Below the pieces are notes generated by a model. It worked only from the letters and a program-made list of their open reading frames with translations, was not told the DNA's origin and did no database searches. Shown here piece after piece: positions 313 to 64,000 of a stretch of DNA of 64,000 nucleotides. Position 1 is the stretch's first letter. Every line of letters starts with the position of its first letter. This DNA comes from Sinohyriopsis cumingii (taxonomy: Eukaryota > Mollusca > Bivalvia > Unionida > Unionidae), in contig CM068839.1 in the NCBI GenBank assembly GCA_028554795.2, positions 14,663,220 to 14,727,219 of the forward strand, in the 5' to 3' direction. The translations under genes and the position numbers were made by a program.

Positions 313-420
313 GATCTGTCAAACTACAAGTATGACATGATGGTGATCAAAAGCCTGGACATTCTAAACAAGTTGTACTCGTCCCAAAGTGACATGTTCC
401 AGCTGGCACTGGAAGCACAG
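313..420 (+). CDS. ITPR: IP3R-like exon 1 of window
   Basis: 36 codons, phase 0 at both ends. Acceptor AG is at 311-312 and donor GTATGA at 421. It encodes residues 1-36 of the joined segment, ending in SQSDMFQLALEAQ. This matches the vertebrate IP3R helix that reads RHFSQRQEVLQAFKQ at the same place relative to the next exon. Confidence 0.85.
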
Positions 421-3400
421 GTATGAAGAAAAGGAAAGAGCATCAAAAGGAGAATGGGTCACAGGTCATATGGGGTTTGAATGCAGTCACCTATTGATTA
501 GTATTTCATTATACTTACAAACATAGTCTTAAGATTGCTGTATTGTTGTGGTTGATGACATAATATAGTCCAAAAGTACAATTTTGACACTTTATTTACC
601 ATATACACTCACTTATAAGTCAAGTCAAACTGCAAACAACAATGATCATTATCTGCTATAACATAATGTACATGCAGATCAGGTCTATGTTATTTGTTCT
701 ACTGATTGCTCCTAAAAAAAAATGCACAGACCCAGATCTGCTGGTATGTTTTGCGAGTCAGATCTGGGTCTGTGCAGCTTGTGGTTGGACTCATCTTACA
801 AGCAAGTACATATTGTAACATTCATAAATTTGTTTAATTTGAATGTCACTTCAGCACAGTATAAATGTACAAAACTGTGTACCATGGTATTATATTGAGT
901 AAATTGTGGTGCTCAGCAAGTACATGTTACAATTACATTTATGTCACTGATCACTGTTGTCATAAACAGACATCTTGTAATAAAAAGCTATGCTGTGTTG
1001 TAGTAATTAATCAATTAACAAGTGCTTCCTGTAACATCATGTCTCACCCTTTTTTAAATTTCTTCATTGTACCATCTTTCTAATGGCTTTATCAGCTTGC
1101 ACAAAAACATTAATTTTGGTTTACACAAACATTAACACTGGCTTGCACAAACTTATTTCGACTGCAAGAACAAACTTAAAGACCTAATAATGTTTCCTAC
1201 CTTAAATATTCTCAGCTTGTTTTTTAATGTTTTCTAATTTCATGGTGTTTGTTTTTGTAGTTATATCATTATATGTTTTTTATCTTATAGGTGTTGTCTA
1301 ATGTTGTAAAGTGCTTAGAGCTTCTAAAGATTAGTTGCTATACAAAGTCCTCATTATTATTATTATTATACAGACAAATGTTGGACTGTATATTAATAGG
1401 TACTGCTTACATACAGACAGATGTTAGACTGTATAATAATAGGTACTACTCACATACAGACAAATGTTGGACTGTACTATAATAGGTACTACTCACATAC
1501 AGACAAATGTTGGACTATAATAATAGGTACTACTCACATACAGACAAATGTTGGACTGTATAATAATAGGTACTACTCACATACAGACAAATGTTGGACT
1601 GTATTATAATAGGTACTACTCACATACAGACAAATGTTGGACTGTATAATAATAGGTACTATTCACATACAGACAAATGTTGGACTGTATAATAATAGGT
1701 ACTACTCACATAAAGACAAACATTGGACTGTATAATAATAGGTACTACTCACATAAAGACAAACGTTGGACTGTATAATAATAGGTACTACTCACATAAA
1801 GACAAATGTTGGACTGCATAATAATAGGTACTACTCACATAAAGACAAACGTTGGACTGTATAATAATAGGTACTACTCACATAAAGACAAATGTTGGAC
1901 TGTATAATAATAGGTACTACTCACATAAAGACAATCATTGGACTGTATAATAATAGGTACTACTCACACACAGAAAAATGTTGGACTGTAAATACTACAA
2001 ATATGACAGTCACATTTTGATCATTTGAATATTTTGTAGGTTCTGGTAACGCACGACTCAGCCCGTGTTCATCGTGAGGTTCAGAGAAGCCTGCCAGTCC
2101 TGAGGCGCCTTTCCAAACAGAAACTTAATGAGCAGCAGGTTCTACATATGAATGAGATTCTCAATGAACTGGCAGAGTAAATAATCCATACATTATTTGA
2201 TCAGGACATTATTATGAATGATATTCTCAATGAACTGGCAGAGTAAATAATCCATACATTATTTGATCAAGACACAATTATGAATGAGATTCTCAATGAA
2301 CTGGCAGAGTAAATAATCCATACATTATTTGATCAGGACATAATTATGAATGAGATTCTCAATGAACTGGCAGAGTAAATAATCCATACATTATTTGATC
2401 AGGACATTATTATGAATGAGATTCTAAATGAACTGGCAGAGTAAATAATCCATACATTATTTGATCAGGACGTAATTATGAATGAGATTCTCAGTGAACT
2501 GGCAGGGTAAATCATCCGTACATTGTTTGATCAGGACGTAATTATGAATGATATTCTCACTGAACTGGCAGAGTAAATAATCCATACATTATTTGATCAG
2601 GACATAATTATGAATGATATTCTCGATGAACTGGCAGAGTAAATAATCCATACATTATTTGATCAGGACATTATTATGAATGATATTCTCAGTGAACTTG
2701 CAGAGTAAATAATCCATACATTATTTGATCAGGGCATAATTATGAATGAGATTCTTAATGAACTGGCAGAGTAAATAATCCATACATTATTTGATCGGGA
2801 TATAATTATGAATGAGATTCTCAATGAACTGGCAGAGTAAATAATCCATACATTATTTGATCAGGACATTATTACGAATGATATTCTCAATGAACTGGCA
2901 GAGTAAATAATCCATACATTATTTGATCAGGACATAATTATGAATGATATTCTCAATGAACTGGCAGAGTAAATAATCCATACATTATTTGATCAAGACA
3001 TAATTATGAATGAGATTCTTAATGAACTGGCAGAGTAAATAATCCATACATTATTTGATCAGGACATTATTATGAATGAGATTCTCAATGAACTGGCAGA
3101 GTAAATAATCCATACATTATTTGATCAGGACATTATTACGAATGATATTCTCAATGAACTGGCAGAGTAAATAATCCATACATTATTTGATCAGGACATT
3201 ATTACGAATGAGATTCTCAATGAACTGGCAGAGTAAATAATCCATACATTATTTGATCAGGACATTATTATGAATGAGATTCGCAATGAACTGGCAGAGT
3301 AAATAATACCTACATTATTTGATCAAGACATAATTATGAATGAGATTCTCAATGAACTGGCAGAGTAAATAATCCATACATTATTTGATCAAGACATAAT

Positions 3401-6400
3401 TATGAATGAGATTCTCAATGAACTGGCAGAGTAAATAATCCATACATTATTTGATCAAGACATAATTATGAACGAGATTCTCAATGAACTGGCAGAGTAA
3501 ATAATCCATACATTATTTGATCAGGACATTATTATGAATGAGATTCTCAATGAACTGGCAGAGTAAATAATCCATACATTATTTGATCAGGACATAATTA
3601 TGAATGATATTCTCAATGAACTGGCAGAGTAAATAATCCATACATTATTTGATCAAGACATTATTATGAATGATATTCTCAATGAACTGGCAGAGTAAAT
3701 AATCCATACATTATTTGATCAGGATGTAATTATGAATGAGATTCTCAATGAACTGGCAGAGTAAATAATCCATACATTATTTGATGAGGACATAATTATG
3801 AATGAGATTCTCAGTGAACTGGCAGAGTAAATAATCCATACATTACTTGATCAGGACATTATTATGAATGAGATTCTCAGTGAACTGGCAGAGTAAATAA
3901 TCCATACATTATTTGATGAGGACATAATTATGAATGAGATTCTCAGTGAACTGGCAGAGTAAATAATCCATACATTATTTGATCAGGACATTATTATGAA
4001 TGAGATTCTCAGTGAACTGGCAGAGTAAATAATCCATACATTATTTGATCAGGACATTATTATGAATGAGATTCTCAATGAACTGGCAGAGTAAATAATC
4101 CATACATTATTTGATCAGGACATAATTATGAATGAGATTCTCAGTGAACTGGCAGAGTAAATAATCCATACATTATTTGATCAGGACATTATTATGAATG
4201 AGATTCTCAATGAACTGGCAGAGTAAATAATCCATACATTATTTGATCAGGACATTATTATGAATGAGATTCTCAATGAACTGGCAGAGTAAATAATCCA
4301 TACATTATTTGATCAGGACATTATTACGAATGAGATTCTCAGTGAACTGGCAGAGTAAATAATCCATACATTATTTTATCAGGACATTATTACGAATGAG
4401 ATTCTCAATGAACTGGCAGAGTAAATAATCCATACATTATTTGATCAGGACATAATTATGAATGATATTCTCAATGAACTGGCAGAGTAAATAATCCATA
4501 CATTATTTGATCAAGACATAATTATGAATGAGATTCTCAATGAACTGGCAGAGTAAATAATCCATACATTATTTGATCAAGACATAATTATGAATGAGAT
4601 TCTCAATGAACTGGCAGAGTAAATAATCCATACATTATTTGATCAGGACATTATTATGAATGAGATTCGCAATGAACTGGCAGAGTAAATAATCCATACA
4701 TTATTTGATCAGGACATTATTACGAATGAGATTCGCAATGAACTGGCAGAGTAAATAATCCATACATTATTTGATCAGGACATTATTACGAATGAGATTT
4801 GCAATGAACTGGCAGAGTAAATAATCTATACATTTTTTGATCAGGACATAATTATGAATGAGATTCTCAATGAACTGGCAGAGTAAATAATCTATACATT
4901 ATTTGATCAAGACATAATTATGAATGAGATTCTCAATGAACTGGCAGAGTAAATAATCCATACATTATTTGATCAAGACATAATTATGAATGAGATTCTC
5001 AATGAACTGGCAGAGTAAATAATCCATACATTATTTGATCAGGACATTATTACGAATGATATTCTCAATGAACTGGCAGAGTAAATAATCCATACATTAT
5101 TTGATCAGGACATTATTATGAATGAGATTCGCAATGAACTGGCAGAGTAAATAATCCATACATTATTTGATCAGGACATTATTACGAATGAGATTCGCAA
5201 TGAACTGGCAGAGTAAATAATCTATACATTTTTTGATCAGGACATTATTATGAATGAGATTCTCAATGAACTGGCAGAGTAAATAATCTATACATTATTT
5301 GATCAAGACATAATTATGAATGAGATTCTCAATGAACTGGCAGAGTAAATAATCCATACATTATTTGATCAAGACATAATTATGAATGAGATTCTCAATG
5401 AACTGGCAGAGTAAATAATCCATACATTATTTGATCAGGACATTATTACGAATGATATTCTCAATGAACTGGCAGAGTAAATAATCCATACATTATTTGA
5501 TCAGGACATTATTATGAATGAGATTCTCAATGAACTGGCAGAGTAAATAATCCATACATTATTTGATCAGGACATTATTACGAATGAGATTCGCAATGAA
5601 CTGGCAGAGTAAATAATCCATACATTATTTGATCAGGACATTATTACGAATGAGATTCGCAATGAACTGGCAGAGTAAATAATCTATACATTTTTTGATC
5701 AGGACATTATTATGAATGAGATTCTCAATGAACTGGCAGAGTAAATAATCTATACATTATTTGATCAAGACATAATTATGAATGAGATTCTCAATGAACT
5801 GGCAGAGTAAATAATCCATACATTATTTGATCAAGACATAATTATGAATGAGATTCTCAATGAACTGGCAGAGTAAATAATCCATACATTATTTGATCAA
5901 GACATTATTACAAATGAGATTCTCAATGAACTGGCAGAGTAAATAATCCATACATTATTTGATCAAGACATAATTATGAATGATATTCTCAATGAACTGG
6001 CAGAGTAAATAATCCATACATTATTTGATCAGGACATTATTATGAATGAGATTCTCAATGAACTGGCAGAGTAAATAATCCATACATTATTTGATCAGGA
6101 CATTATTACGAATGAGATTCGCAATGAACTGGCAGAGTAAATAATCCATACATTATTTGATCAGGACATTATTACGAATGAGATTCGCAATGAACTGGCA
6201 GAGTAAATAATCTATACATTTTTTGATCAGGACATTATTATGAATGAGATTCTCAATGAACTGGCAGAGTAAATAATCTATACATTATTTGATCAAGACA
6301 TAATTATGAATGAGATTCTCAATGAACTGGCAGAGTAAATAATCCATACATTATTTGATCAAGACATAATTATGAATGAGATTCTCAATGAACTGGCAGA

Positions 6401-9400
6401 GTAAATAATCCATACATTATTTGATCAGGACATTATTACGAATGATATTCTCAATGAACTGGCAGAGTAAATAATCCATACATTATTTGATCAGGACATT
6501 ATTACAAATGAGATTCTCAATGAACTGGCAGAGTAAATAATCCATACATTATTTGATCAGGACATAATTACAAATGATATTCTCAATGAACTGGCAGAGT
6601 AAATAATCCATACATTATTTGATCAGGACATTATTATGAATGAGATTCTCAATGAACTGGCAGAGTAAATAATCCATACATTATTTGATCAGGACATTAT
6701 TACGAATGAGATTCGCAATGAACTGGCAGAGTAAATAATCCATACATTATTTGATCAGGACATTATTACGAATGAGATTCGCAATGAACTGGCAGAGTAA
6801 ATAATCTATACATTTTTTGATCAGGACATTATTATGAATGAGATTCTCAATGAACTGGCAGAGTAAATAATCTATACATTATTTGATCAAGACATAATTA
6901 TGAATGAGATTCTCAATGAACTGGCAGAGTAAATAATCCATACATTATTTGATCAAGACATAATTATGAATGAGATTCTCAATGAACTGGCAGAGTAAAT
7001 AATCCATACATTATTTGATCAGGACATTATTACGAATGATATTCTCAATGAACTGGCAGAGTAAATAATCCATACATTATTTGATCAGGACATTATTACG
7101 AATGAGATTCGCAATGAACTGGCAGAGTAAATAATCCATACATTATTTGATCAGGACATTATTACGAATGAGATTCGCAATGAACTGGCAGAGTAAATAA
7201 TCTATACATTTTTTGATCAGGACATTATTATGAATGAGATTCTCAATGAACTGGCAGAGTAAATAATCTATACATTATTTGATCAAGACATAATTATGAA
7301 TGAGATTCTCAATGAACTGGCAGAGTAAATAATCCATACATTATTTGATCAAGACATAATTATGAATGAGATTCTCAATGAACTGGCAGAGTAAATAATC
7401 CATACATTATTTGATCAGGACATTATTACGAATGATATTCTCAATGAACTGGCAGAGTAAATAATCCATACATTATTTGATCAGGACATTATTACAAATG
7501 AGATTCTCAATGAACTGGCAGAGTAAATAATCCATACATTATTTGATCAGGACATAATTACGAATGATATTCTCAATGAACTGGCAGAGTAAATAATCCA
7601 TACATTATTTGATCAGGACATTATTATGAATGAGATTCTCAATGAACTGGCAGAGTAAATAATCCATACATTATTTGATCAGGACATTATTATGAATGAG
7701 ATTCTCAATGAACTGGCAGAGTAAATAATCCATACATTATTTGATGAGGACATAATTATGAATTTGTATTATTCCAATAGTGTTCAGTGTGAGACTGGTT
7801 TCCACACTAACCATATTGTGCTTTATTTGTATTATTCCACTAGTGTTCAGTGTGAGCATGGTTTTCATACTAGCCATATTGTGCTTTATTTGTATTATGC
7901 CAGTAGTGTTCAGTGTGAGACTGGCTTCCACACTAGCTATATTGTGTTTTAGTTTTTACTATTATAGTAGTGTTTCACAAACTCTATAATATTAATTTAT
8001 GAATTGGTAAATTGCATCATTAACATCTATACTTTTTTTTAAGTTGATTGCTGCAAACTGCACAGACCCAGATCTACCATCACATAATGTGCCAGGAGAT
8101 GCACTTTATTAAATGTCATGTGTAAAACAAGTGATATAGACCCTGATGTCCAGTACATTATGTGATGGCAGATCAGAGTCTGTTGCAGTTTAACTCAACT
8201 TATAAGTGATTATATATTGTATCTCTGAAGAACTACATGAATCTTGAGTACATACAGTTTGCTACCTTATATACTGGCTTATAAGTTCAATCCAACTGCA
8301 AACAACATATGAACATGGTCCACTGCATCTACTGTTAAGTTATGTGAAGAAATTGTTTCTTAACTAGTAATACAAAAAATGAACTGTACAACTGTAAGGG
8401 TTCACAACTCTTTGTCTGCAAATTTTATAATAAATACCAAATTTTTACAAATACAAACAGTAGGTTAGCAAGGAAGTTCCATCAAGCTTAAATTATCATT
8501 ATCAGTCAATGGAAAATTGAATCAACTGAGATATGAAGATGTTAAAATTTCTGTCACCTTTTATGAAGATGTTAAAATTTCACCTTTTCTAGGTTTTGTT
8601 TTCTGCCAAAGACACCACATGAGCCACATTTCATGAACCAGAACATAATGATTAGCCATGGTAAGTAGAAGTTTCTGTATTTAATAGACTAGATATAATG
8701 CATGCACATAGCACAGATCCAGATCTGCAGTCACATGATGGCCCATCTGTACAGACCAGTATCTGTTGTCACATAATGGACCATCAGTATAGACCAATAT
8801 CTGTTGTCACATAATGGACCAGAAGTACAGACCAATATCTGTTGTCACATAATGGACCAGCAGTACAGACCAATATCTGTTGTCACATGATGGACCAGCA
8901 GTACAGACCAATATCTGTTGTCACATAATGGACCATCAGTACAGACCAATATCTGTTGTCACATAATGGACCAGCAGTATAGACCAATATCTGTTGTCAC
9001 ATAATGGACCAGCAGTACAGACCACTATATGTTGTCACATAATGGACCGTCTGTACAGACCAGTATCTGTTGTCACATAATGGACCAGCAGCATAGTCAC
9101 AGATCTGCTGAAACACAATGGACTCACAGCACAGACTCTTATATGTGGTCACATTAAGATCTGCTGTCACATAATGGGCTGGCAGCACAGATCCAGATAA
9201 AATAAAGTAAAATATTAGACCAGCAACATACAAGTAGCTCTTTCATCATACAGTCGGCCAGCATACGGTGGGCTTCAAATCAACAAACAGCCCTGATTCG
9301 GATAGACAAATACTTTAAACAACAACGTAGACTCTAATTTACCAATACTTTACACAAAACATAGACTCTGGTCTGCTAATGTTTTATACAACAACATAGA

Positions 9401-12400: not shown

Positions 12401-15400
12401 AAGCATTATTTCAAGAGACTCAGGTGAGTCCAATTTTCACCAACTTTCTAACATTTGTTATCAAATTATTTAAAAAAACTCAGGTGAGCCCCATTTTAAC
12501 TAACTTTCTCACATTTGCTCTCAAACTGAGATTGCTCATTGCATTACTCTTTTAATTTACCTTGTGGGGATAGTAGAAATGATGAAAATAACTCTAAAAT
12601 TATACACCTAGGAATTTTTTCTTTTCTTGAGAATTTTTTTTATCAGTTCCTCAAATTTGAGGAGATGGCATGTTCTTTAGAAATAAAAGTACATTCTGTT
12701 GAAGGTAATTCAAAAGATTGTGACTTTATTTTACCATATATATTCCTATATATGTCAAGACCAACTGCAAATTGTACAGACCCAGCTCTGCCATCGCATA
12801 ATGTACCAGCAGACCATATATAGTTTATTTGGAATAATCAGTAGAACAAACATAGATCCTGACCTTCTGTGCATTATGCAATGGCAGATCAGGGTCTATG
12901 TTATTTGCAGTTGGACTTGACAAATAAGCAAGTAAAGTTGGTAATCCTTGTTGACTGCTAAATGGTAGTGAAAAATTAATTGTTGTCAACTAAGAAATAA
13001 AAGAGATATTCAAAAATCTGTTTTTGAAAGAAAATGTGATGTTGAATGGCCAGATCAGATGGTAATGCTATAGCTCTTCATGGGTCCTATTAGTCAATGT
13101 ACTTAACAATTCAGTGTTCAATTTATTCGAAGTTGATTTTCTTTAATTTATGTAAACTTGTACACTATGTAATTTGTGCTTATTAAATGTCTCCAATACA
13201 CAAGATCTCATATGAAAAGAAATCATTATGTCTACAGAGATTTAATAATGTGTAATTTGAAATTATTAAACTGCAGTTCTATGCCTGTTTGAAAATCTTC
13301 TTTAACTCTGAGAGCCTTTTAGTAATGTTGAATTGTGACCACTATGAGTTAAGTACATGAACCAAGCTTGCTTCAAAGTCAGGCTCTAATAAAGAGATTC
13401 CAGTCAATTACTGACATCAAACGGGAAATAAAAGGTTTTATTTTGTTATTCTTCTACTGAATACATTTGTAGGCATGATAGCATTACATTCTGAAAGACT
13501 AGCTTCAAAAGTTCTCTAAAGAGAAAAGATAAAATTTGTATTTATAATATACTATGTTCATATGACATTCCATTTCATCTCATATGACATTCCATTTCAT
13601 CTTATATGACATTCCATTTCATCTCATATGACAGTACTTTCACCTTATATGACATTCCATTTCATCTCATATGACATTCCATTTCATCTCATATGGCAGT
13701 TCTTTCACCTCATGACAGTTCATTAATCTCTTTTAATACTCCATTTCATCTCATACTGCATTAATTTTCATCTCTTATTGCAGGTATTTTGGACATTGTT
13801 CTGGACATATTGTCTCAAGAGATTGACTCCAAACTGCTGGTAATTGATTCCTGTCCCTTGGATCTCACTCTGCATCAACAACTATCCCTGGTTCTTATTA
13901 AATATTTAGGATAGATACCTGTCACTGTGTAAACAACTATCCCTTAGCCCTAATTACGACTAATGGTTTTCAAGAAATTTAATGCATTTAATGTGCATGA
14001 ACTAAATGCTTACCTTTCTAGTTTTGACTTTTGTTTTTTTACACCATTTTAGTATGTAAACCTCTGTGTGCGTTTTGATTAATGAAATTTCTGGTTTGAT
14101 TGACACCAGTTTTGAATAAATTCTTAAATACATGATCATGCTAAAAACATCTGGTTATTTGGTTAGATGAAACTTGAAATGTAGATGCAAGAAAATTGTC
14201 CTTCATATAGTCAAATGTAGGTGACTGAAGCCTAACTTTTGTGTACCTCTTGAATGCTGTCAGCTACAAACTCAAATCATTCTATGATATAAGGTTAGGA
14301 TCCTTCAGCCTTTGTTGTAGCTATAAATGTAATTTTTATTTAATGAATTGACTGACTTTTAAACTTTAAATAACCTGACAGATTTTATTCTAGACTAGAT
14401 TTCTCAATATCATCAGAAGGAATTTATGGAAACGTTAGGTGTGTGTCTGTCCATAAATAAAATGTAGTTGTCTTTAAAATGTCATCTGATATACAGTCCC
14501 CTACCTTTTGTATCTATCTAGGAAACTTTTCAAATGAACACAAGGGAACCATATATATTTGATTATAAGTCCAGTCCAACTGCAAACTGCACAGAACTAG
14601 CTATGCCATCAGATTATGAGCCAGCAGATTTGGGTCTATGCATTTTGTTAGGAGTAATGGGTATTGCAAACAAAATATACCCTGATATATCAGCACATTA
14701 TAGGACAAAAAAGATCAGAGTCTATATTGTTTGCAGTTGGAGTTGACTTGTATGTATGTATACTGTGGTAGACCATAATGTTGATAGTACTAGAAATGCA
14801 TGTAACCAAGTGTAATACCTGTGCCCACTTGCAGGTGTCAGGAGATGCTTCTAGACGGGGAAAGGAAAAGGCTAAGATACACAAACCTGTAAGACTATAC
14901 ACTGAATCTATCATCATAAATTCTGTCTCATAATTTAGCTTTATACTCTCAATAATGCTATTTTGTTATATATTATAACTATTTGCTTGATATATTGTTC
15001 ATAAATTAAGTGATAGTTCTGACCTTCAGAATTCATATCATTGATACATTTTCTTAAGACTGAGGTTTAAAACAAATTGTTCATGTATATTGATGGAAAA
15101 ATATTAAACAGAATTCACTAAATGTTTCAAGTGGATTTCATGATAATTGTATGGGTATAAAATGTTTTACTAGGATGTAATCAGCACTCTAAAGCATACG
15201 CTTTTAAAAGTTTTGGGATGGTACCAGCTTTTCTATTAAGGCATTGTGGTGGCGGCTTGTAAAGAGAACATTATCCTGGTTTTCTCATGCTAGCTTGACT
15301 CAATACAAATTTAGCCCCCCCTGGAAAAGTCACCATATCATGGTAGGGACTCTTCCTCTTAAGTTAAACCTAATTCCCCCTTGATAGGGCACCAGGCTAA

Positions 15401-45400: not shown

Positions 45401-48400
45401 TGTGTCATGTTCCCAGTTTCTCCACAGTAGAGACAGTACTCTTCATTATAGTGCCTGAAAATGAGGCATGCATGTTAATATTAATCAGTAGTTGAGAGGT
45501 CCCACATCATGGTGAAGAGGCGCCTACAGTCAAGTATAAACATCGGCAAAATTAGAAGCTTTCCCAGAGGGGACATAGGAAGTGACCATGATCTGGTGAT
45601 CATGATGTTCAGGCTACATCTAAAGAAGGTCAAGAAAGAGAGCCACACAAGAACAAAATTTGATCTTGAGAAATTGAAGGATCTTGAAATAGCAAAAGCC
45701 TTCCAGGCAATGATTGGTGGGAAATTTGCACCGATCACTATCCTAGATGCTGAAAATACTGACATGGACTCATTGATCACCAGCTTCAATACAGTAATGA
45801 CCAAAACAGCCAGTGGTATCCTTGGTAGACATCGCCCAATCAAGAAACCCCGGGTCATAGCTGAGGGCATGCAGCCTTTTGGGCGACCATGAGACTGGAC
45901 ATCATCAATGCCAACCTCATCACAGTAATAGAGCACCTCTATGACAAGGTCACCAGTGCAGTATACTTCAATGGCAGCATAGGGGACTGGTTCAGAATGA
46001 CAGTTGGAGTCAGACAAGGCTGTCTTCTCTAGTCCACACTATTCAACATCTTTCTATAGAGAATCATGGCAGACGCGCTTGATAAGCATACCGGGACAGT
46101 CAGCATCGGAGGCAGAACAATCACCAACTTACGTTTTGCTGATGACATTGATGGACTAGCAGGAAATAAGCAAGAATTAGCTAGCTTAGTAGAGAGCCGT
46201 GACAAAACCTGGATGGAAATTAGTGCAGAGAAGACCAAAATGATGACCAACTTCATCAAGGGCATCAGCACTGACATCAGGGTCCAACGTACAAAGCTAG
46301 AAAAACAGTCCACAGCTTCAAGTATTTGGGGCAACTGTAATAGATGAAGGATTGAAGCCTGAAATACTCTCCAGGATTGCACTGACAACAGCAGCACTGA
46401 CAAAACTGAAGCCCATCTGGAAGGACAAGAACATCACACTCAGTTCAAAGGTCAGACTGATGCACTCACTGCGGATCTCCATATTTCTCTATGCCTGCGA
46501 TTCATGGACCATAACAGCAGATGAGATGTTTCCGAAAGATCCTCGGCGTCACATACAAAGACCATATCACCAATGAAGAAATATGGCAGAGGATAAGACA
46601 AGCCATTGGGCCTCACCTCCTGATCATAGTGAAAAAATGGAAACTGCAGTGGTATAGGTATGTCTCACGATCATCAGGACTTGTCAAGACAATCCTACAA
46701 GGCACTGTACAAAGAAGAAGAAAGAGAGGCAGGCAAAGAAAGAGGTGGGAAGATAACATTCAAGAGTGGACAGGTTTGATACTGAGTGACTCACTGAGAA
46801 AGACAGAAAATCAAAAGGAATGGAGGAAGCTGGTTGTTAGGTCTTGTGCAGTGCCCCAACGGTGTTCCAGACTACGGGACTGATGATGATGATGATGATG
46901 ATGAGTTGAGAGGTTCTTTTTCTGTTTAAATGAATTTTGTCTCTATGATAGAGACTTAGGTTAACATCCTGGTTCTGAACAAGGATGTGTATTGTGGAAT
47001 GTACTGTAGGTTGAAGTCTTCACATAGGTCAATTATCAGATCATTGATTTCTTTCACCTTGGTGTCCACATGAATAAGTAATTCCGATATCATTATTTTA
47101 CATGTATTTGGGCTGCAATACCTAGCAGCATACAGTAAACTTTAAAAATCTGTTCTGATTTGATTTAGTGACCTTCCCTCACTGGTATCATTTCCACCTA
47201 CTAAAATAATAATTTGGTTGTATTTGTTAGGTCAGTATTCATTATTCTGTCCATGATGTTGTTGATATTTGCACCCCTTAGAGTCTCTACATCTGTTTTA
47301 AAAAGTCTCCTTGGTATTCTGCTTTTCAATATTGAGGAGCCAATTATTAGAGTCCTATCTTTTCTAGCTTGTGATTTCATTTGTTGTACTATGGATTGTA
47401 TTTCAGACACATCTCTTGGAGGAAGGGGTGCTGAAATTGGTGTTTCAGTTGTGTGAACTATTCGAGCTGATGTTGACACATTTGTCTGAGTACTGGGAAA
47501 TGCAGTTGTTGGTGCAGGCAACAGACTTGTCTGAGCTGAGGACCATTGTGTGTACACTTATTGCTGTTGCAGGTGTGACACATGACTGAGAGGGGGTACT
47601 GTTGTTTGCAGTGCAGGATTACTTTGGGTATAAGTTGTCACTTGCATGGTCATTGTACATTTTCTTTTGGCTGATGTTGGGATTGTCTGTGTCTGAGCAT
47701 CTGACATTGTTTCTATTTGGGAATCTGTCTGAATTGCTGTTTCACATAAGGTTACTTGCTCATTAACTCTTCCCTGTGCTGACTTAATAGCATGTAACTG
47801 TAGTTTTAATTCTTCAGTTTGGGCCTCCAAGTTCCTAATTGTTTTTTGATGTATACACATGGAGAAATCATTAAGGTTTAAGCCATCACTGCTGTGGTCA
47901 TGATTTTAATACTCTGGAAGGGTGTTAATTTTATTGCCTGAGTCATTTAAGTCAATGACTTTAGGAGCTGTTTCATGTTTGGTACTACATCTAGTTGTAA
48001 GCATATAACTGCCTTTAGCATGGGTATTCTCCCTGTCTACATACAGATAATATGATCTAACCATGCATCCCATTCATTATAAATGCATACAAAAGCTGAC
48101 AATAAATTTGGGAAGGAGGTTAAATTACAGTCGTTGTAAATGTAGACAAAAGCTGAGAATCAACTGGAGATAAGGGGAATCTAGTATAAATCTATACAGT
48201 GAAACTAACATAAATGTTTTTTTGATGATGTCAAATATCCCTTACACTTTTAAATTACATTACTAGGATTAGGAATTGTCAATTTCATAATTATATATTT
48301 GATTATATTTTATTAACATCTTACTCAACTGCATATCATGTATTTTTCTTGTGTTCAGGCCCTTTGTGATGTCATTGGACCCGTCTTGTCTGATCCAAAG

Positions 48401-49696
48401 CACATGAAGTCCATGGTTACGTCTTTGACAGCTTTAGTGTCTACATCAAATGCACCCAGAGCGGTAGGTACCATACATTTATATTTACCTGCTGATTACA
48501 TTCTTCCTCAGTATGTCTGACACTATAGATAAAAGTACATCAAAATCATATAAAATGTTTCTTTGTTTTTCTTTCCATAAAGTTCACAACTATAAGAAAC
48601 ATATCCCATTAGGAATGATGTATATGCGACTTACATGTTTAAATTCTAGCCTGCCAACATTTCTGTGCTTTCATCCTAAGGAATATTTTTATGGGAAACA
48701 AATGTTACAGAAATAAATAAAGTAATTTAATATCTAGTACAGGATCTAGTGATTCGAAAATCCTTTAAATGTCACTTTATATTTTCAAATATAACCCGTC
48801 ATCTGATTTTGTTGTATCATCATGACTAGAATCAGTTGTCATCAACAGAGAAATTATATCGTCTTGTGCAATCTTCATAGAACAAAGGAGTACTTGGAAG
48901 AATAGTGCTTTAATAACTGCATCATTTATTTATCTTCCTCTTCATCAATAATAGATTAATACAATTTCACTTAATGGTCGGTTATCACAGTGAAACAGGT
49001 TGAGTATAGTATGCCAGAAGATTTTAAGAACTTAAGTTTTCCTCATAACTAGAGTGATGTAATTTCACTTAACTGTCAGATATCACATTGATACAGATAT
49101 GCCAGAATGGATCTTAATTAAGTTTTTTCATCCATAGAGTCGAGCAATTTTATTTAGCAGATGGGTATTGCAATGAGTCGTGTTGTGCCAGAATATCTTA
49201 GTTCCTTTTCAGATTATGGTTGGAGTTTTGGAGAAGTTCAATAGTGAGATAAAAACTGGAGACACAAAAAGTGCTGTTAGAAAGGTAACATCCCCATTGA
49301 TGATATTTATTGTATGTTGATTTCTTAGATATCCATTAAAGTAACCCACAAATAAAATAAAATTAATGTTGAATAAGAAAAATAACAAATATACTCAGGT
49401 TATATGATTTGTTGATGTCTGCATTTAAAAAATATTTTAATAGATTTTTTTTGTTTGTCATTATAGCATTTTGCAAAATTAACCTGGTTTAGTATCAGCA
49501 TGGACTTAATGCCCTGTAAAGGATCATTGTCAATTGCAAAGAATAATTTGAAAATGTACCCTAAACAACATCACCAAAGTGTTTTGACTCAAGTGACACA
49601 GATGGCATCAAGCTTCAAAATGGCACTTAACATTTTTTGGGGTACAGCCCCTTCATATTTTAAATTTATAATTTAAAAAAGGTACATGCTTTTGTG

Positions 49697-49766
<70 letters not shown>

Positions 49767-52700
49767 ACACACACACCAGTATGAAATGTGCCATGCAATG
49801 AACATAGTTTGTCTGGTCAGGAGATTATTTGCTGTTGTTTTTTTTCAACAGGGCAACATGGAATACTATGCCAGTGAGCTAGAGCTGAATGCTAAGTTTC
49901 ATATGTTTGCTACAAACTGCCAACATGTTCACTGTGGACAGAACTCAGTTTCCCAGCAACTCAAAGTCAAGTCAAAAAGAGGTATGTACTATATATCTGT
50001 TACAGAGCGGGCAGTTTGGCCTTTTGATAAACTGGTGTCCTATCTTGGTGCAGGGCTGGGGGTGGTGTAGCATGGTTATTAGGTGCTAGTGGACATGTTT
50101 TTTCAGTTAATTCAGGTCATTCTGACTGGGATAACCTCCAATATGAACCATATAGTCAGAAGAAAAAAACTGTGAAGTGTACTTTAGCATTATTTTTATG
50201 TGTGCATGTGCAAGGTAAATGCACACAAGCCTACACATAAGTAAACAGACTGATAAACTTAAAATACATTGAGTTTTAAAGATTTGTCAGCATTTAGGGT
50301 AAATGTCCTCTTTTTGTGGCATTTCATGTAGGAATTTACCTGCTTTTGGACATCTTTTATGATCTCAGCCTTCTCATTACCCTTTGAAGGTACTGGCTCT
50401 AAATTAAAAGTACAGTGCTAAGTCAGTGCATACAACATTTTTTTTAAAAATGTTAGTATTTTAAAATTAGACAAGCATAATGTTTAAATCAGTACAAATA
50501 GAAGGGTTTGAGCAGGCTGCTGGCAGCTAACAAGAAGGCTCTTTTATACACAAAAAGCTGTTCACCATTACCTGATTTGCATGGTTTACCATTACCTGAT
50601 TTGCATGGTTCACCATTACCTGATTTGCATGGTTCACCATTACCTGATTTGCATGGTTTACCATTACTTGATTTGCATGTTTTACCATTACTTGATTTAT
50701 ATGGTTTACCATTACCTGATTTGCGTGGTTTACCATTACTTGATTTATATGGTATAACGTTACCTGATTTGCAAGGTTTACCATTACCTGATTTGCATGG
50801 TTCACCATTACTTGATTTATATGGTATAACATTATCTGATTTATATGGTTTACCATTACTTGATTTATATGGTTTACCATTACCTGATTTGCATGGTTCA
50901 CCATTACCTGATTTATATGGTGTATCGTTACCTGATTTATATGGTTTACCATTGCTTGATTTATATGGTTTACCATTACTTATTGTTATAGTTTGCTGTT
51001 GCTGATGCTATTATGTATCTTGAAACAAGGTTTACCATTGGATCATGAAACTATATGGATACATTTTTGGGGGTAATTTTTGTTGAGTTGCCTTGGTGGA
51101 GGCTCAACATTGCAACCATTGTTGTGTCCTAATGCCTGTCTACATCAGTCCATTCACACACTAGATTAACCTTAATATTAAAAGATTTTATGGAAGAACT
51201 GTATTGTTTTGATTCAGATAATGCGAGTGGAATGTCAGGTAGATTGCCTTTGGTTCAGATAATACTAGTGGAATGTCAGGTAGATTGCCTTTGGTTCAGA
51301 TAATGCTAGTGGAATGACAGGCAGATTGCCTTTGGTTCAGATAATGCTAGTGGAATGACAGGCAAATTGCCTTTGGTTCAGATAATGCTAGTGGAATGAC
51401 AGGCAGATTGCCTTTGATTCAGATAATGTTAGTGGAATGACAGGCAGATTGCCTTTGATTCAGATAATGCTAGTGGAATGTCAGGCAGATTGCTTTTGAT
51501 TCAGATAATGCTAGTGGAATGACAGGCTGATTGCCTTTGGTTCAGATAATGCTAGTGGAATCTCAGGCAGATTGCTTTTAGTTCACATAATGCTAGTGGA
51601 ATGTCAGGCAGATTGCCTTTGATTCAGATAATGCTAGTGGAATGACAGGCAGATTGCCTTTGGTTCAGATAATGCTAGTGGAATGTCAGGTAGATTGCCT
51701 TTGATTCAGGTAATGCTAGTGGAATGTCAGGTAATTGCCTTTGGTTCAGATAATGCTAGTGGAATGACAGGCAGATTGCCTTTGGTTCAGATAATGTTAG
51801 TGGAATGTCAGGCAGATTGCCTTTGGTTCAGATAATGCTAACGGAATGAGAGGCAGATTGCCTTTGATTCAGATAATGCTAGTGGAATGACAGGCAGATT
51901 GCCTTTGGTTCAGATAATGCTAGTGGAATGTCAGGTAGATTGCCTTTGATTCAGGTAATGCTAGTGGAATGTCAGGTAATTGCCTTTGGTTCAGATAATG
52001 CTAGTGGAATGACAGGCAGATTGCCTTTGGTTCAGATAATGTTAGTGGAATGTCAGGCAGATTGCCTTTGGTTCAGATAATGCTAATGGAATGAGAGGCA
52101 GATTGCCTTTGATTCAGATAATGCTAGTGGAATGACAGGCTGATTGCCTTTGGTTCAGATAATGCTAGTGGAATGTCAGGCAGATTGTCTTTGGTTCAGA
52201 TAATGCTAGTGGAATGTCAGGTAGATTGCCTTTGGTTCAGATAATGCTAGTGGAATGACAGGCAGATTGCCTTTGATTCAGATAATGCTAGTGGAATATC
52301 AGGTAGATTGCCTTTGGTAGTGGATTGATAGGCATGTGGAATGTTACTGTGGCATATGCCAAAGAAAGGCTGATGATGACGTACATTTTTGGAAGTCCAT
52401 GTCATTTAATTCACACAGTAGCAGAAAAAGCTGCAAAGAAACTGACTATAAAAGCAATGTTCATGTTGGTGGATATGTATTATTTAGGTAAATGTTTAAA
52501 GCATAAAAAAGAACTGAGTGAATTTCAAAATACTGGCATGCATAAGATTCAGAAGTACATTGCATCCATTTGGCTTTCTATAGGCAATTTACTCAGGTGA
52601 CTGATTGGAATGCTCACAAAGCTTTTGCAGAATCAGAGGTAGCCATTGCAAAGCATATAGCATAGGAAGAAAAAGAAGAGGAGTCTTGAATGTGATATTT

Positions 52701-55700: not shown

Positions 55701-58700
55701 CAGAAGTTTCTCTCATATAGTGTGTCTGTACCCAGATCGTCTGTCATATAGTGTCTGTACACAGATCTTCTGTCATATAATGTGTCTCTACCCAGATCTT
55801 CTGTCAAGTAATGCACTTAGACCACAGTCTTCTGTAACATAGTGTACATGTATCCAGTGATTCTGTCAAATAATGTACATGGACCCAGAACTTCTGTCAA
55901 ATAATGTACATGGACTCGGATCTTCTGTCAAATAATGTACATGAACTCAGATCTTCTGTCAAATAATTTACATGGACCCAGAACTTCTGTCAAATAATGT
56001 ACATGGACTCAGATCTTCAGTCAAATAGTGTACAGGGACACAGATCCTTTGTCAAATAATGTATATTATGTGTCAGCAGATCAGGGTCTATTGTGTTCAT
56101 TTTACAAATGATTTGAAGTTATCATTGTGGAACCTTATTAGGATGTGAATGACATGACTGCAAATGTGGTCTGTACTGTTGCAATTGGGTATTTTCAACA
56201 CAAAGGTGCATATTCAACACTACTGTGCCTTATGCATGGTGAAATATGAGTATCCAAGATTTGTTTCCTTCACAGAATATACAGAGGTAGGAAGCAGTGA
56301 GGAACTTCCTTTAGGTGAAGACTTTCAGAATCTTGTGAAAACATTCATTGACAATCATGAAAAGAAGTCTTCCAAAAGATATGCTTTAACAAAGAAGCTG
56401 TTGGAGCAGCTGGCGTAAGTATTACTGATGATGTGGAACATATGCTAATTATGTACTTATTGGGTTAAGGAATAAGTATTACTGATGATATGGAACATGC
56501 TACACATGTAGGGAGTGGGTTTAGGAGTAAGTATTACTGATGATATGGAACATGCTACACTTGCAAGGAGTGTGTTAAGGAGTAAGTATTACACTGGTCA
56601 ACAGTGAAATCATTACTGACTTGAAAAGGCCCTAATCTGTAGTATTTTGGTGTGCCGAACACGAATATAACCGTGAAAAATTTGTATTGGCTCTCGTTTT
56701 GAAGATATTCATATACCTCATTTTCTATGTTTCACTGTGTAAATTTCTCCAGTAGGACTGCAGCAACATCCGGAATAATGATGTAACATTGCATAATACC
56801 ATCATGCTCACATCATCCACAGTTGATTGCATCATTTTCTGATGCAATGCAATACTAATGCCATGCGGCTGCTGAAGTAAGTTGACGTCAGCAGTGTACT
56901 ATACATGTGTAGGCCTATTATACTAATGCCAGGCGGCTGCTGAAGCTGACGTAAGCAGTGTACTATATAAAGCCCAATCAGATAGGTTCAGCATTTAAAA
57001 TATTTTAGACGTTGTGCGAGACAGTTCAAGCTACTGTTACATAAAACTTATTATTTTATCCATTTACGTACAATAAAGAACAGTAATGCCTCGAAAGTGT
57101 GTTAATACCGCGGACAATTTTTGCTATATTTGTGGGGAAGTGACATTTGCCAACCAGAAGAAAAGTATCAATTCTCAAGTGAAGAAGGCATATCATCTTT
57201 ACTTCGGATGCAAGGTTGGTGACCAAGACAAGCCTTGGGCTCCGCATATATGCTGTGCTACATGTACAACACAGCTTTCACAGTGGTTGAATTGCAAAAG
57301 GTCATCAATGCCGTTTGCAGTCCCAATGGTGTGGAGAGAGCCAAGCAACCACCTAAATGACTGTTACTTCTGCTTGGTTTCTCCTCTTTCCGGCGGAATA
57401 ACGAAGCGAAAGAAGTCGAGAATAGTCTACCCAAACATTCCGTCTGCATTGAGACGAGTTCCACATGGTGAGGGACTTCCTATTCCAGAACCTCCAGCAG
57501 AATATTCTCTTGATTCATCTGACGAAGACAAAGGTGAGTCGACCTGTTCTTCTCCTGGTCCATCAGCATGCAGTGATCCAGATTTTCACTGTGGTGCATC
57601 ATCAACCCCACACAGAATAACACAGGAAGAACTAAATGACCTGATTCGTGATTTGGACTTATCAAAGAACAAGGCAGAATTGCTAGGATCAAGACTCCAA
57701 CAATGGAATCTTCTAGAAGAAGATGTCACAATTACTGCATATCGAAAGCGCCACCAGCAATTGGAGCCTTTCTTCAGAAAGGAAAGTAATCTGATATTCT
57801 GTTCCGATATTGAGGGCCTCATGAATGCTTTAAAAATCACTCATGACCCACAAGAATGGAGACTATTTGTGGACTCTTCGAAACTGAGTCTCAAGGCTGT
57901 GCTTTTGCACAATGGAAACATTCTTCCATCTATTCCAGTAGCGTATGCTGTCCACATGAAAGAGACATACGATAACTTAAGGCAGCTACTGAATTCCATT
58001 GAGTATAACAAGTACAGCTGGCACCTCTGTGGTGATTTGAAGGTAGTTGCCCTTTTAATGGGACTGCAGCAAGGATATACAAAATACATGTGTTTCTTAT
58101 GCGAGTGGGATAGCCGAGCAAGGGAAATGCACTACATGAGGAAGGAATGGACTCACAGGCAGAATGTAGCTATTGGAGAGAAGAATATCCAACACCCAGC
58201 TCTGGTTGAGGCTCAGAAAATCTTGCTACCACCCCTTCACATCAAACTAGGTTTGATGAAGAACTTCGTGAAAGCCATTGACCGGACTTTGCCAGCATTC
58301 CGATACCTGCATGAAAAATTCCCTCGACTCAGCGAAGCAAAGATTAAAGAGGGAGTTTTTGTGGGTCCTCAGATTCGAGAGCTTTTCAAAGATGACCGGT
58401 TCAACAACTTGCTGGAAGGTGACGCGAAACAAGCATGGAATGCTTTTCGCCTAGTTTCTACAAACTTCCTCGGAAATGTTAGGGCAGAAAACTATAAGGA
58501 ACTAGTAGAAGACAAGTTGATGAAGTATAAGAAACTTGGCTGCAATATGTCTCTAAAGATTCACCTCCTTCATTCCCATTTGGATTTCTTTCCTAGCAAC
58601 TGTGGTATTGTTAGTGATGAACACGGCGAACGTTTTCATCAAGATATCGCAACAATGGAACAAAGATACCAGGGAAAATGGTCCACTACAATGCTGGCTG

Positions 58701-59834
58701 ACTACTGCTGGACACTCCTCAGAGATGCTCCCGAACAGCTGTACAAGAGACAGGCGAAGAAATCTAAGATGTAGTCAATGACTTGATTTTTTATAGGTAG
58801 GCTATTACAGTTGACCTTTTACTATTGGAATGCATTTCGTTATGTAAACATTAATTTCTTGCAGATTACAAAAAAACTAGAGCCAATTTTGCAATTTGAC
58901 TGTCATATTCGTGTTCAGCACATAAAAATTGATAAGAATTGACTAATTTTATTTCAGTAACATGACTTTTGTAAAAATTTGTTGTCCAGTGTTATTGATG
59001 ATATGGAACATGCTACTCTTGTAGGGAGTGGGTTCAGGAATAAGTATTACTGATGATGTGGAACATGCTACTCATGTAGGGAGTGTGTTAAGGAGTAAGT
59101 TTTACTGAGGATATGGAACATGCTACTCAAACAGGGAGTGGGAACAGGAGCAAGTATTGCCAAAGATATAGAACATGCTATTCATGTATGGAGTGAGGGC
59201 AGTTGTTCCCATCAATGTACATGGTCTCATTAAACATTAGATACATTTTGTTGAGCTTTTCTTCTTGGTGGAAGTTAACACAGCAATCACTTTGCCATTC
59301 ATGTGTATAACCATACATCCATCTGACCCAATGGCTGTCGATAATCTGTTCATACATATAACCATATTTTTAACAAATGCATATGCTGCCTTCATCTTTA
59401 TTTTATATACATTTTATCTAATAGTAATAATGTTTACAGGATTTATCTAAAATTTTGTGTAATCCATTTTTGCATTTTAAAACCTAATTACATTTAGTTT
59501 TCATGATGTAGACTCTGTTAGGTGCCATAAATTGCTGACTCATTCATACATACATGCATATATTGATCCATAGATAGTTACATATATACATACATACATA
59601 CATGCATACATACATCCATCCATACATGCATGCATGCATGCATGCATGCATGCATACATACATACATACATACATACATACATACATTGATACATATATA
59701 CACTGATACATGCATGCATGCATGCATGCATACATACATACATACATACATACATACATACATACATGCCTGCCTACTTACTTACCTACCTACCTACCTA
59801 CATACATACATATATACATACATATATACATACA

Positions 59835-59896
<62 letters not shown>

Positions 59897-59949
59897 CATA
59901 CATACATACATGCATACATACATACATTACATTACATACATACATAGAT

Positions 59950-59996
<47 letters not shown>

Positions 59997-60317
59997 CTAA
60001 CTTAAGGTCAAGGTCAAGTTCTTTACTCTGTAATTAAATAAAGGTGTGCTTAGGAAAATTAGGTCTTTTGTTTTAATAGTATCCAGGATCTTTTCCAGAT
60101 CATTAATATTGTCATCTGATAATAGGTTCAAGAAATCAGTAAAGAAAGTAAAATTATCATTTGTGGCTCATATGTCACATCACTAAGCCTTCATAGAGGA
60201 CATTTTATACATTTAAAGGAGTAAATGAAATATTTGAATATTTTTAAGCACTGTGTCCTTAAGAATAATGAAATAATTCATTAAAACTTTAATGCTGAAA
60301 ATAATTGGCACTTGCTT

Positions 60318-60353
<36 letters not shown>

Positions 60354-63300
60354 GCAAGTTTGTTGGGTGTAAAATTTTTTACAAGTAATGATGTCTTAAT
60401 TCCATGGGTATAAGATTGTGAAGTAGAAAGATGTTTTTAAAATACATTTTTCATCATGATTGGAATTTCTTTAACCATTGCACAAATTGAATACCTTTAT
60501 AATTACACCATTGTACAAATTGAATACCTTTATAATTACACCATTGTACAAATTGAATACCTTTATAATTACATCATTGTGCAAATTGCGGAGTTTATCA
60601 TCATTGTTAATGGACAACTACAATATTGCTCAAAGATTACAGACTTCCTGATTTTGTGACTAACTGCAGGATATCTGCCAAGCAAATCCGTCTGGCTATG
60701 ATGCCATCAGGTGCAGAAGAGGTCCTGGACATTAAATGTCTGCAGATTCTGAGGGCCATCATCCATAATGAGGAGAGAAAGCTTCCAGAGGACTGGGATA
60801 CAAGAGCCTCAGAAACCAAGATCAAAAAGTGAGCAGTTAACCATAAATACATGTATTTGTAGATACTTTGAGTCCAATTTCACTGTATATGAATCTTTGT
60901 TAATTCTGGAAATAAGGCATATTTATGGGAAAACAATGATTTGCAGTTGATCTTCATTCTCCTAACATGTATGAGAATTGAGGATTTCATTAGATTATAA
61001 ATATACATTCTGTTTGACATACCTTTGTATTTTGCCTAATTAGAGCATGCTTTAGTTTGTAACTCTACAGGTGATAGACCAGAAGAATTCATTGGGTGGC
61101 CTACTTTCTGTTACCTGTCATCTGAGGTCCATTGTCCATCTCTAGATTATCACAAATTTGTTATCGCTACTTCTTCTAAACTACATATAAGATTGCCATT
61201 AAACTTTACACGCACATTCAACCAATGGTCTAGTTGGTCCTAGATGAAAATAGTGCAGCGCTCACACTTACAATATGTCCGTCATAGTGGCCATCGTGAA
61301 TACTTTGTTATCTGATCTGACAGCTGACATGGATGGTTTTCATTTAAAGACAAATCATGTTTATCTTGATCCTAAATGAAAATGGTGCGGATCTGACAAT
61401 TGATAAGGTAGCTATTTTTAAAATATAGATTTCATAGGATAAAATATAGATTTCATAGGATGTTTGGTTTGCCCTGAAGTAAAATGGTGCTACTAGTACA
61501 CCCAGCATGGTAGACACTATGGCAATCTTGAAATTCATTTTATTGATACTTCTTTTGAATTGATAGTCATTATCAACATGGAACCATTACTAAAAGACAT
61601 TGGATGATGTCTAGTTGCTCTAAAATGAAAATATCAGTCTGATGTCCATTATGGTCACCATGACTGCCATATTGTTATTACTTTTCCTCCAGAACTGAAA
61701 GTCATATTGACATGAGGTTTTCATCCTGAGACTTCTTATGATATGTAATTGTTCCTGATTTCAAATGTGCTGATCACACATCCAGTATGACCATCATGGC
61801 AGCCATCTTGAAAATCTCATTGCTATTCCTCCTGAATGGAAAGTTACATTGACATGGAGCTTTTCACCTGAAGGCTTCTTCTGATGTCAGGTTGTCCCTA
61901 AATGTAAATGGTGCCACTTGGACATTCAATGTGGGTAACACAGTGATCATCTTGAAAACCTTGTTATTGTTATTCCTCATGAATGGAAGAGAGTATCAAC
62001 CTGGGCTTTTCACTGAAAGACTTCTTATGATGTCTGCTTGGCTGTAAATGAAAATGACAAACTGGCCACATATCAGCCATCTTGAAAATCTTTTCTCACT
62101 ATTTTTTCTCATTAGAAAGTCCTACATTAAAAATGGGGTTTTCACCAGAAGACCTCTTAGAATATCTAGTTGGTTCTAAATTAAAACTTTTCCAATCTGA
62201 CCTCCAATATGGCTGCCATGGTGGCTGTCACCTGGAGGCTTCTGATGATGTCTAGGATGGCCCTAACTGTAAATAGTGCCTCTTGGACTTTCGTTATGGA
62301 CAACACAGTGGCTATCTTGAAAATTTTGTTGTTGCTATTCCTACTGAATGAAGGGTAATATCAATATGGGATTCTCACTAAACGACTTCTGATCATGTCT
62401 AATTGGTTCAAAGGTTAAATGGTGTTGATTTCATGTCCAGTACATCCACCATGGTAGCCATGTTGAAGATCTTTTTGTCAACTCTCCTCTGAAACATGAT
62501 ATTGTATCGACATTTTCATGAAAAACTTCTTATGGTATCTGATTGATCCTAAATAATTACGTTGCCTACCCTGCATCCAATATAACACCATGGCAGCCAT
62601 CTTGAAAATTTTGTTATTGCTTTTCCTCCTGAACAGTAGTCATATTATCGTGGGTTTTTCACTGGAAAATTTATTATAATGTCTAGTTACTCCCAAATTA
62701 AATTTTGTTGATCTGACCTCCATTATGGCTTTCACAGCATCTGTTTTGAAAATCTGTCACTACTCCTTCTAGTTGGATGGTTATATCGATCGGTTTTATC
62801 CAAAATACTCACTGTGATCTAAATGAAAATGACACTGATCTGGCATCCACCATGGTAGCCATCTTGAAAATCTTGCTACTGCAACAACTTCTGGATGGAT
62901 GGTCATATCAACATGGGGTTTTCACCAAAATTCTTCTTTTGATGCTACCTGGTCTTAAATTAAAATGTTGCTGACTGAACATCCAATATGGCCACCATGG
63001 CAACCATCTTGAACACTCAGTAGTTCAAAAGAATAATAGGTCTTGAATTCTTAGAAAAAAAATTCAACTAGTAGAGTGTCATTCCTTTTGAATGAATTCT
63101 GTACACTTAAATAAAGTGACTGAGTTGATGGATGAGTGGATGGAAAATCCACAACAAAATGGTTCTTTTGCATATGTAATGGTAAAACAGTAATATGCAG
63201 GTTTCCACAGGTCAGAGTTACAAAGCAGAATAAATTTTTCCACGTGTTTTGAAACTTTCAGATCTACAAATACTCCAAAACAGATCTCTATAAGCATCTA

Positions 63301-63649: not shown

Positions 63650-64000
63650 GTATGACTTAGGTCTGGGGAGGGCCAGTCCCAACAGGGAGGTCCAGGTATG
63701 ACTTAGGTCTGGGGAGGGCCAGTCCCAACAGGGAGGTCCAGGTATGACTTAGGTCTGGAGAGGGTCAGTCCCAACAGGGAGGTCCAGTTATGACTTAGGT
63801 CTGGGGAGGGCCAGTCCCAACAGGGAGGTCCAGGTATGACTTAGGTCTGGGGAGGGTCAGTCCCAACAGGGAGGTCCAGTTATGACTTAGGTCTGGGGAG
63901 GGACAGTCCCAACAGGGAGGTCCAGGTATGACTTAGGTCTGGGGAGGGCCAGTACCAACAGGGAGGTCCAGGTATGACTTAGGTCTGGGGAGGGCCAGTC
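63632..64000 (+). repeat. 46-bp minisatellite seeded on the exon 18 5' splice site, at least 8 copies
   Basis: The unit is CCAACAGGGAGGTCCAG (the exon 18 tail), then GTATGACTTAGGTCTGGGGA GGGCCAGTC. The first copy is coding plus the true donor. Most later copies keep CCAG|GTATGA unchanged; two (about 63789 and 63880) read CCAGTTATGA and lost the GT. The array runs off the end of the window. Confidence 0.96.

Follow-up and report, generated by a model that had tools for sequence, protein, structure and literature searches.

Gene model of the window

The window analysed here is a 64,000-nucleotide (nt) stretch of the mussel Sinohyriopsis cumingii (contig CM068839.1, C16:14663220-14727219, in a genome of 2.90 Gb). 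It lies within a plus-strand gene encoding an inositol 1,4,5-trisphosphate (IP3) receptor, ITPR, several of whose splice junctions are included in, or abutted by, minisatellite arrays. An initial annotation, made from the window sequence alone, had attributed these arrays to a recurrent process that picks exon-intron borders.

Exon borders were obtained by tblastn with the receptors of Sinanodonta woodiana (P0121) and Mercenaria (P0122), followed by GT-AG junction modelling, yielding an ITPR gene of 59 exons over ~212.6 kb. Homology to these two receptors places 17 exons in the window instead of the 18 first claimed, and extends through all 17. The modelling covered 57 of the gene's 58 junctions, the omitted one being the switch of query from P0121 to P0122, and 8 of the modelled junctions had an alternative choice within 5 score units. 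Placement by eye was used for the exon 36-37 junction (w15 donor, for which the automatic junction search returned none, and w16 acceptor) and for exon 11, which has a GC donor.

The joined exons matched 68 proteins at E <= 0.001, including other mollusc receptors, with P0121 as the best match at 75% identity, a value obtained while the query still contained a false exon segment at 19668, and with P0122 at 59%. These protein identities suggest a freshwater mussel close to Sinanodonta as the host. A cleaner exon query matched solved ITPR2 chains at the sequence level (5.3e-6). Pfam scans with early exon guesses gave nothing useful, and the first PDB scans with such guesses were weak, one finding no match at 0.001 and another a best match at 0.0075. 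Exon-like segments at 14522, 19668, 22614, 41590 and 42158, among others, were rejected, as they offered a reading frame only and had no tblastn support from mollusc receptors. The 17 exons, all supported by tblastn and, except where stated, by GT-AG modelling, are as follows.

313..420, plus strand: exon w1 (gene exon 22 of 59)
2040..2176, plus strand: exon w2 (initially exon 2)
8593..8660, plus strand: exon w3
13784..13839, plus strand: exon w4 (initially exon 4)
19164..19328, plus strand: exon w5
21140..21378, plus strand: exon w6 (initially exon 7)
28954..29041, plus strand: exon w7
32841..33028, plus strand: exon w8
34332..34445, plus strand: exon w9
35350..35434, plus strand: exon w10 (gene exon 31)
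37037..37123, plus strand: exon w11 (initially exon 12)
48359..48463, plus strand: exon w12
49213..49284, plus strand: exon w13
49852..49981, plus strand: exon w14
56276..56414, plus strand: exon w15 (gene exon 36; initially exon 16), donor by eye
60671..60828, plus strand: exon w16, acceptor by eye
63493..63649, plus strand: exon w17 (initially exon 18)

Minisatellite arrays at splice junctions

Arrays were detected with Tandem Repeats Finder (TRF). The initial annotation had known of no named class for arrays in such positions, but they have already been named mirages in amphioxus (PMC3087553, PMC3902484), where they are minisatellite-like tandem duplications across intron-exon boundaries, both 5' and 3' (PMC3087553). 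The arrays found at splice junctions of the window are listed below.

2147..7763, plus strand: donor mirage at w2, 66-bp unit x 85.1, the first unit including the final 30 nt of the exon (to 2176)
13558..13790, plus strand: weak acceptor array at w4, 22-bp unit, extending 7 nt into exon w4
21374..22092, plus strand: donor mirage at w6, 49-bp unit x 14.7, 5 nt of exon included (exon end 21378)
36674..37036, plus strand: acceptor mirage before w11, 50-bp unit x 7.3, reaching up to the final base of the intron
56415..56592, plus strand: donor mirage at w15, left part, 55-bp unit x 3.2, beginning at GTAAGT
58988..59195, plus strand: donor mirage at w15, right part, 55-bp unit x 3.8
63633..64000 (to 64307, past the window end), plus strand: donor mirage at w17, 46-bp unit x 14.7, 17 nt of exon included

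TRF and the modelled borders bore out what had been read from the letters at the donors of w2, w6, w15 and w17, the exon ends of 30, 5 and 17 nt inside the unit at w2, w6 and w17, and the minisatellite (36674-37036) ending precisely at the acceptor of w11, which begins at 37037. Weaker versions had been claimed at two further exons. At w4, the 22-bp array does reach 13790, but AG is kept in only 1 of 3 aligned copies and the case is weak; the other, initially exon 14, was not found, as every remaining splice site in the window is free of TRF arrays of period >= 10 within 40 nt. The two parts at w15 (56415-56592 and 58988-59195) form a single array interrupted by a 2.4-kb mobile element. The w15 donor and w11 acceptor arrays only abut the border and are thus boundary-spanning in a loose sense. 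That the units are unrelated, and that the arrays are therefore no single mobile repeat, also held: when eight ITPR and two myosin junction units were compared, no two of them matched at E <= 0.01.

Outside the window, the donor of gene exon 47 carries two copies of a 66-bp unit, and that of gene exon 53 (200937-201060 in main coordinates, C16 ~14794156-14794279) four copies of a 57-bp unit. Over the whole gene, arrays are found at 6 of 57 donors and at 2 of 57 acceptors, one of the latter being weak. Five of the donor arrays (gene exons 23, 27, 38, 47 and 53) contain 5-32 nt of exon; over all six the range is 0 to 32 nt, placing the left edges at no fixed position, and in all six cases array growth is on the intron side only. 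Gene exons 11 and 14 are followed by further arrays, which begin 13 and 27 nt beyond the respective donor. The locus as a whole is dense in intronic minisatellites, 94 arrays making up 48.3 kb of a gene that spans 212.6 kb, at densities per kb of 0.47 in the window, 0.47 in the upstream and 0.39 in the downstream part of the gene, and the window is an unusual local cluster of five junction arrays. We consider it probable that these arrays are mirages of chance origin, minisatellites that happen to include or abut a junction and are kept by purifying selection, with no targeting needed.

Junction arrays are not private to one gene. In a sample of 20 myosin exons drawn from 71 matches (ten contigs, several exons from one gene region, ~200 nt of flank; chosen for matches without stops, mostly by rank with the longest left out, borders set by eye), exon L033 has a donor array (19 bp x 4) and exon L035 an acceptor array (57 bp x 3.2), while an array begins ~29 nt after the donor of L052 and another ends ~65 nt before the acceptor of L034. 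This rate of one donor and one acceptor in 20 is near the chance rate. Long open frames of 379-802 amino acids contain several of the myosin-head matches on C9 (~72.5 Mb and 104.1-104.5 Mb), whereas most of the remaining matches are in short exons.

Junction arrays are shared with an ITPR paralog

A second ITPR locus lies ~500 kb upstream, in a 72.2-kb stretch (C16:14163220-14235419; L026-L032, L053). In alignable blocks of at least 300 nt outside the arrays, with a near-identical transposon copy excluded, the paralogs diverge by 7.7% (1689/21822 sites). All five strong junction arrays of the window are also present in the paralog, with copy numbers (window and paralog) of 85.1 and 22.0 for the 66-bp unit at w2, 14.7 and 20.5 for the 49-bp unit at w6, 7.3 and 10.2 for the 50-bp unit at w11, ~7 and ~45 for the 55-bp unit at w15, and 14.7 and 13.6 for the 46-bp unit at w17, a difference of up to ~six-fold. 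The w4 array is present there too, though TRF placed none within 40 nt of the exon. No junction array is private to one paralog among the borders compared, a comparison that excluded the paralog's exon-16 donor. Arrays in general are shared, as 25 of the 28 window entries (score >= 100, unit >= 15, the split w15 array counted twice) have at least 2 unit hits in the 72.2-kb paralog stretch. Between the two copies, splice-junction arrays are thus as persistent as other arrays, enduring while copy number drifts.

The presence of junction arrays in both paralogs with other copy numbers indicates that the arrays are old and no slip of assembly. Long arrays of near-identical units are easily misassembled, and exact copy numbers could be wrong; yet an artefact in which repeats were collapsed or expanded at difficult places has a negligible probability, since the junction arrays recur in the paralog, where copy numbers and transposable element state differ, and since other exons have two- to four-copy forms. 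The element in question is the one inside the w15 array.

56587..58995, plus strand: 2.4-kb mobile element inside the w15 array, with an intact open reading frame (ORF) of 562 amino acids at 57086-58774

The element shares 99.6% identity with a copy in a different intron of the paralog, and its insertion is therefore later than the array. Its 562-residue ORF had no Pfam match; it had 1941 homologues at E <= 0.001 among 7991 candidates scored, and the named ones among the best 120 of these 1941 came from frog, firefly and moth. In several exons the Sinanodonta receptor is nearer to the paralog than it is to the gene in the window, which may therefore be the faster-evolving of the two.

Splice signals inside the repeat units

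In the w2 array, GTAAAT follows the 30-nt exon copy in 85/85 units. In the w6 array, the first copy, which adjoins the exon, keeps GTATGT, while GT stands in only 2/15 aligned copies and GC replaces it in 13/15, a pattern as would be expected if only the edge copy were under selection. Over the six donor arrays of the gene, GT is kept in 85/85, 2/15, 3/4, 10/12 (w17), 2/2 and 4/4 aligned units, and the w15 array of the paralog keeps it in 39/45. The acceptor array at w11 keeps AG in 7/8 aligned copies, with CTTTGCAG in 6/8, and AG in 7/11 in the paralog.

The full retention at w2 and the high retention at w15 of the paralog, together with the persistence of junction arrays in both paralogs, would suit arrays that function as decoy donors or U1-binding arrays tuning receptor splicing. 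Such a function is nevertheless very unlikely: the w6 units have largely lost GT, copies 2-85 of the w2 array diverge alike in their exon-derived (3.13%) and intron-derived (3.14%) parts, non-junction arrays persist as well, and copy numbers differ by as much as ~six-fold between the paralogs. Selection on the inner w2 donors was considered separately and set aside; there is no hexamer variant in 85 copies, but the variation is clustered at few positions, and the paralog has 2 variants in 22. Gene conversion of the w2 coding tail from the array was likewise dropped, since the one base unlike the paralog just before the unit looks not array-like.

If the first donor were skipped, the reading frame would run into a stop within 4 to 38 nt in five of the six donor mirages. 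At gene exon 53, by contrast, the first read-through stop ends 257 nt on, and the frame stays open across three units of the inner copies; it is possible that the three inner donors, if used, would add 19-residue repeats to the ion channel. Exonization is conceivable at that exon, and a birth of introns by tandem duplication of exonic AG/GT sites, with the arrays as remnants, has been put forward for amphioxus mirages (PMC3087553). We regard this origin as highly improbable in the mussel gene, where each of the six introns concerned has its partner acceptor at a distance of 1.6 to 7.6 kb, and where the other five donor mirages run into stops.

Chance or preference for splice sites

No splice site of the gene lies in the middle of an array, with matching sequence to either side of it (0/114), as against 1005/5222 intron positions (19%), and intron-only windows also gave 0/114; with sites taken as independent, (1-0.19)^114 is ~3e-11. 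This absence is the expected signature of selection against arrays over coding exons combined with one-sided growth, and upholds the earlier suggestion of a filter that leaves arrays just outside a frozen coding copy. Under such selection and growth, an array that runs up to an exon stops there, and this is what had first been noticed as array edges at splice sites.

Several results, most of them for the gene as a whole, weigh against chance seeding. In a seed model with each of the 94 arrays reduced to one unit (collapsed length 168,389 bp), 1.45 of 57 donors were expected to carry an array and 6 were observed (Poisson P 0.004). In an edge-copy test, which asks that the first 30 intron nt match at >= 22/30 downstream, and not upstream, within 260 nt, 7/57 donors scored against 142/5222 intron positions (2.7%, P 0.001), and the result held at a laxer (8/57, P 0.0007) and a stricter cut-off (6/57, P 0.0036). 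Array starts reach their highest density at -35..+30 nt of donors, all more distant bins being lower, and among window acceptors the laxest cut-off (20) gave 3/17 (P 0.033). If splice-spanning duplications are purged, chance would yield even fewer cases, and the donor excess may be understated. The controls are 37 nt apart and non-independent, and the tests assume independent sites while one gene dominates.

The donor excess speaks for a rival in which splice donors, or transcription or splicing there, promote tandem duplication, with seeding at 5' splice sites and not at acceptors. The asymmetry it predicts is present over the gene, where 8 array starts fall within -35..+30 nt of the 57 donors and acceptors show no excess, either in the seed model (2 observed of 57, 1.45 expected, P 0.42) or in the mirror-image edge-copy test (2/57 versus 146/5222 intron positions, P 0.48). 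Windows centred on the border gave 5/57 donors (versus 132/5222, P 0.016) and 0/57 acceptors.

The donor excess, however, comes mainly from the window that raised the idea (5/17, P 0.00016) and is not seen outside it (2/40, P 0.28), against ~2.6% of controls. The fifth window hit, w10, barely meets 22/30 and is without a TRF array. Raising the cut-off to 24 gives 4/17 (P 0.002) versus 2/40 (P 0.23), and lowering it to 20 gives 5/17 versus 3/40 (P 0.15); for acceptors the split at 22 is 2/17 (P 0.11) versus 0/40. The comparison of array edges with intron positions that had been proposed, made here for one gene and 20 myosin exons, thus found a pooled donor excess that does not extend beyond the window, and did not bear out a process picking exon-intron borders, donors and acceptors outside being close to the control rate. 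The independent part of the gene does not support targeting, although 40 donors could miss a two- to three-fold effect. In addition, the left edges are scattered rather than fixed relative to the donor, and the lack of paralog-private junction arrays among the borders compared indicates that births are infrequent. Seeding at donors is therefore, in our judgement, unlikely.

A model for the origin of the arrays, and its implications

Under chance seeding with purifying selection, short tandem duplications would arise throughout introns, and occasionally one would span a donor or an acceptor; a two-copy stage stands at gene exon 47. The duplication would be tolerated as long as the outermost copy is used, which is the first donor from the 5' end or, at the other border, the acceptor closest to the exon. 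The array would then expand and contract like any minisatellite, on the intron side only, and selection, seen as an absence, would keep exons out of array middles.

The w2 junction, where 85 donors with one hexamer follow a single exon at 66-bp spacing, offers a natural test of splice-site choice, in which either exon definition or a first-come rule would need to select the first donor. Were seeding at donors true instead, it would imply a mutation process coupled to transcription or splicing at active 5' splice sites in minisatellite-rich genomes.

Other repeats in the window

Dispersed segments of ~220 bp at 577-817, 12709-12944, 14548-14770 and 53100-53315 match other places in the paralog region on either strand and are probably SINE-like (short interspersed nuclear element). 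ORF pieces on both strands at 30298-32225, 43066-45086 and 45509-46883 resemble, by eye, the reverse transcriptase and endonuclease of long interspersed nuclear elements (LINE type).

Comparison with known systems

Amphioxus mirages occur in Adh3, the globin genes BflGb6 and BflGb9, and TnC, with similar repeats in PGBD5 (PMC3087553, PMC3902484); their units measure 10-72 bp in Adh3 and ~150-160 bp in the globins, and many, not all, contain splice signals. The mussel arrays resemble them in being tandem and minisatellite-like, here by TRF, in units that span the boundary (with exon sequence at five donors), in affecting both boundary types, including the myosin cases L033 and L035, and in carrying splice signals in many but not all units. 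Copy number differs between haplotypes in amphioxus (PMC3087553, PMC3902484), whereas mussel copy numbers were compared between paralogs only. Reverse transcription PCR (RT-PCR) of the globins and data on Adh3 suggest that amphioxus mirages leave regular splicing undisturbed (PMC3087553), while the mussel arrays are described here from genomic sequence.

The human gene IFI6 (6-16) contains a minisatellite with several splice donors. In the human CBS 844ins68 duplication, the distal site is strongly favoured, so that the upstream copy is removed and the rest of exon 8 kept; the sites are called donors in the text of PMC2630376 and a 3' splice site in a title cited there. A 31-bp variable number tandem repeat is placed at exon 13-intron 13 of CBS (PMC1395315). 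These CBS cases differ from the mussel arrays in being single human loci, with two copies in 844ins68. With amphioxus globin and Adh3 splicing, 844ins68 serves as a precedent on which tolerance of junction duplications may be presumed. Boundary minisatellites in human segmental duplications, with mean 30-bp units x 4, can yield new introns or alternative splicing (PMC2812944), but differ in their few copies and in belonging to primate-specific duplicated genes.

Searches of open-access literature, mostly short of full text and touching some papers on mollusc introns, showed no report of mollusc mirages. Set against the six copies cited for amphioxus BflGb6, the mussel gene reaches 85 copies over 5.6 kb, and it differs further in its mollusc host and in having, within a single gene, arrays at six donors and at two acceptors, one of these weak. 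The mussel arrays are mirages in a mollusc, and they exceed the known cases in the sources cited here both in size and in number per gene.

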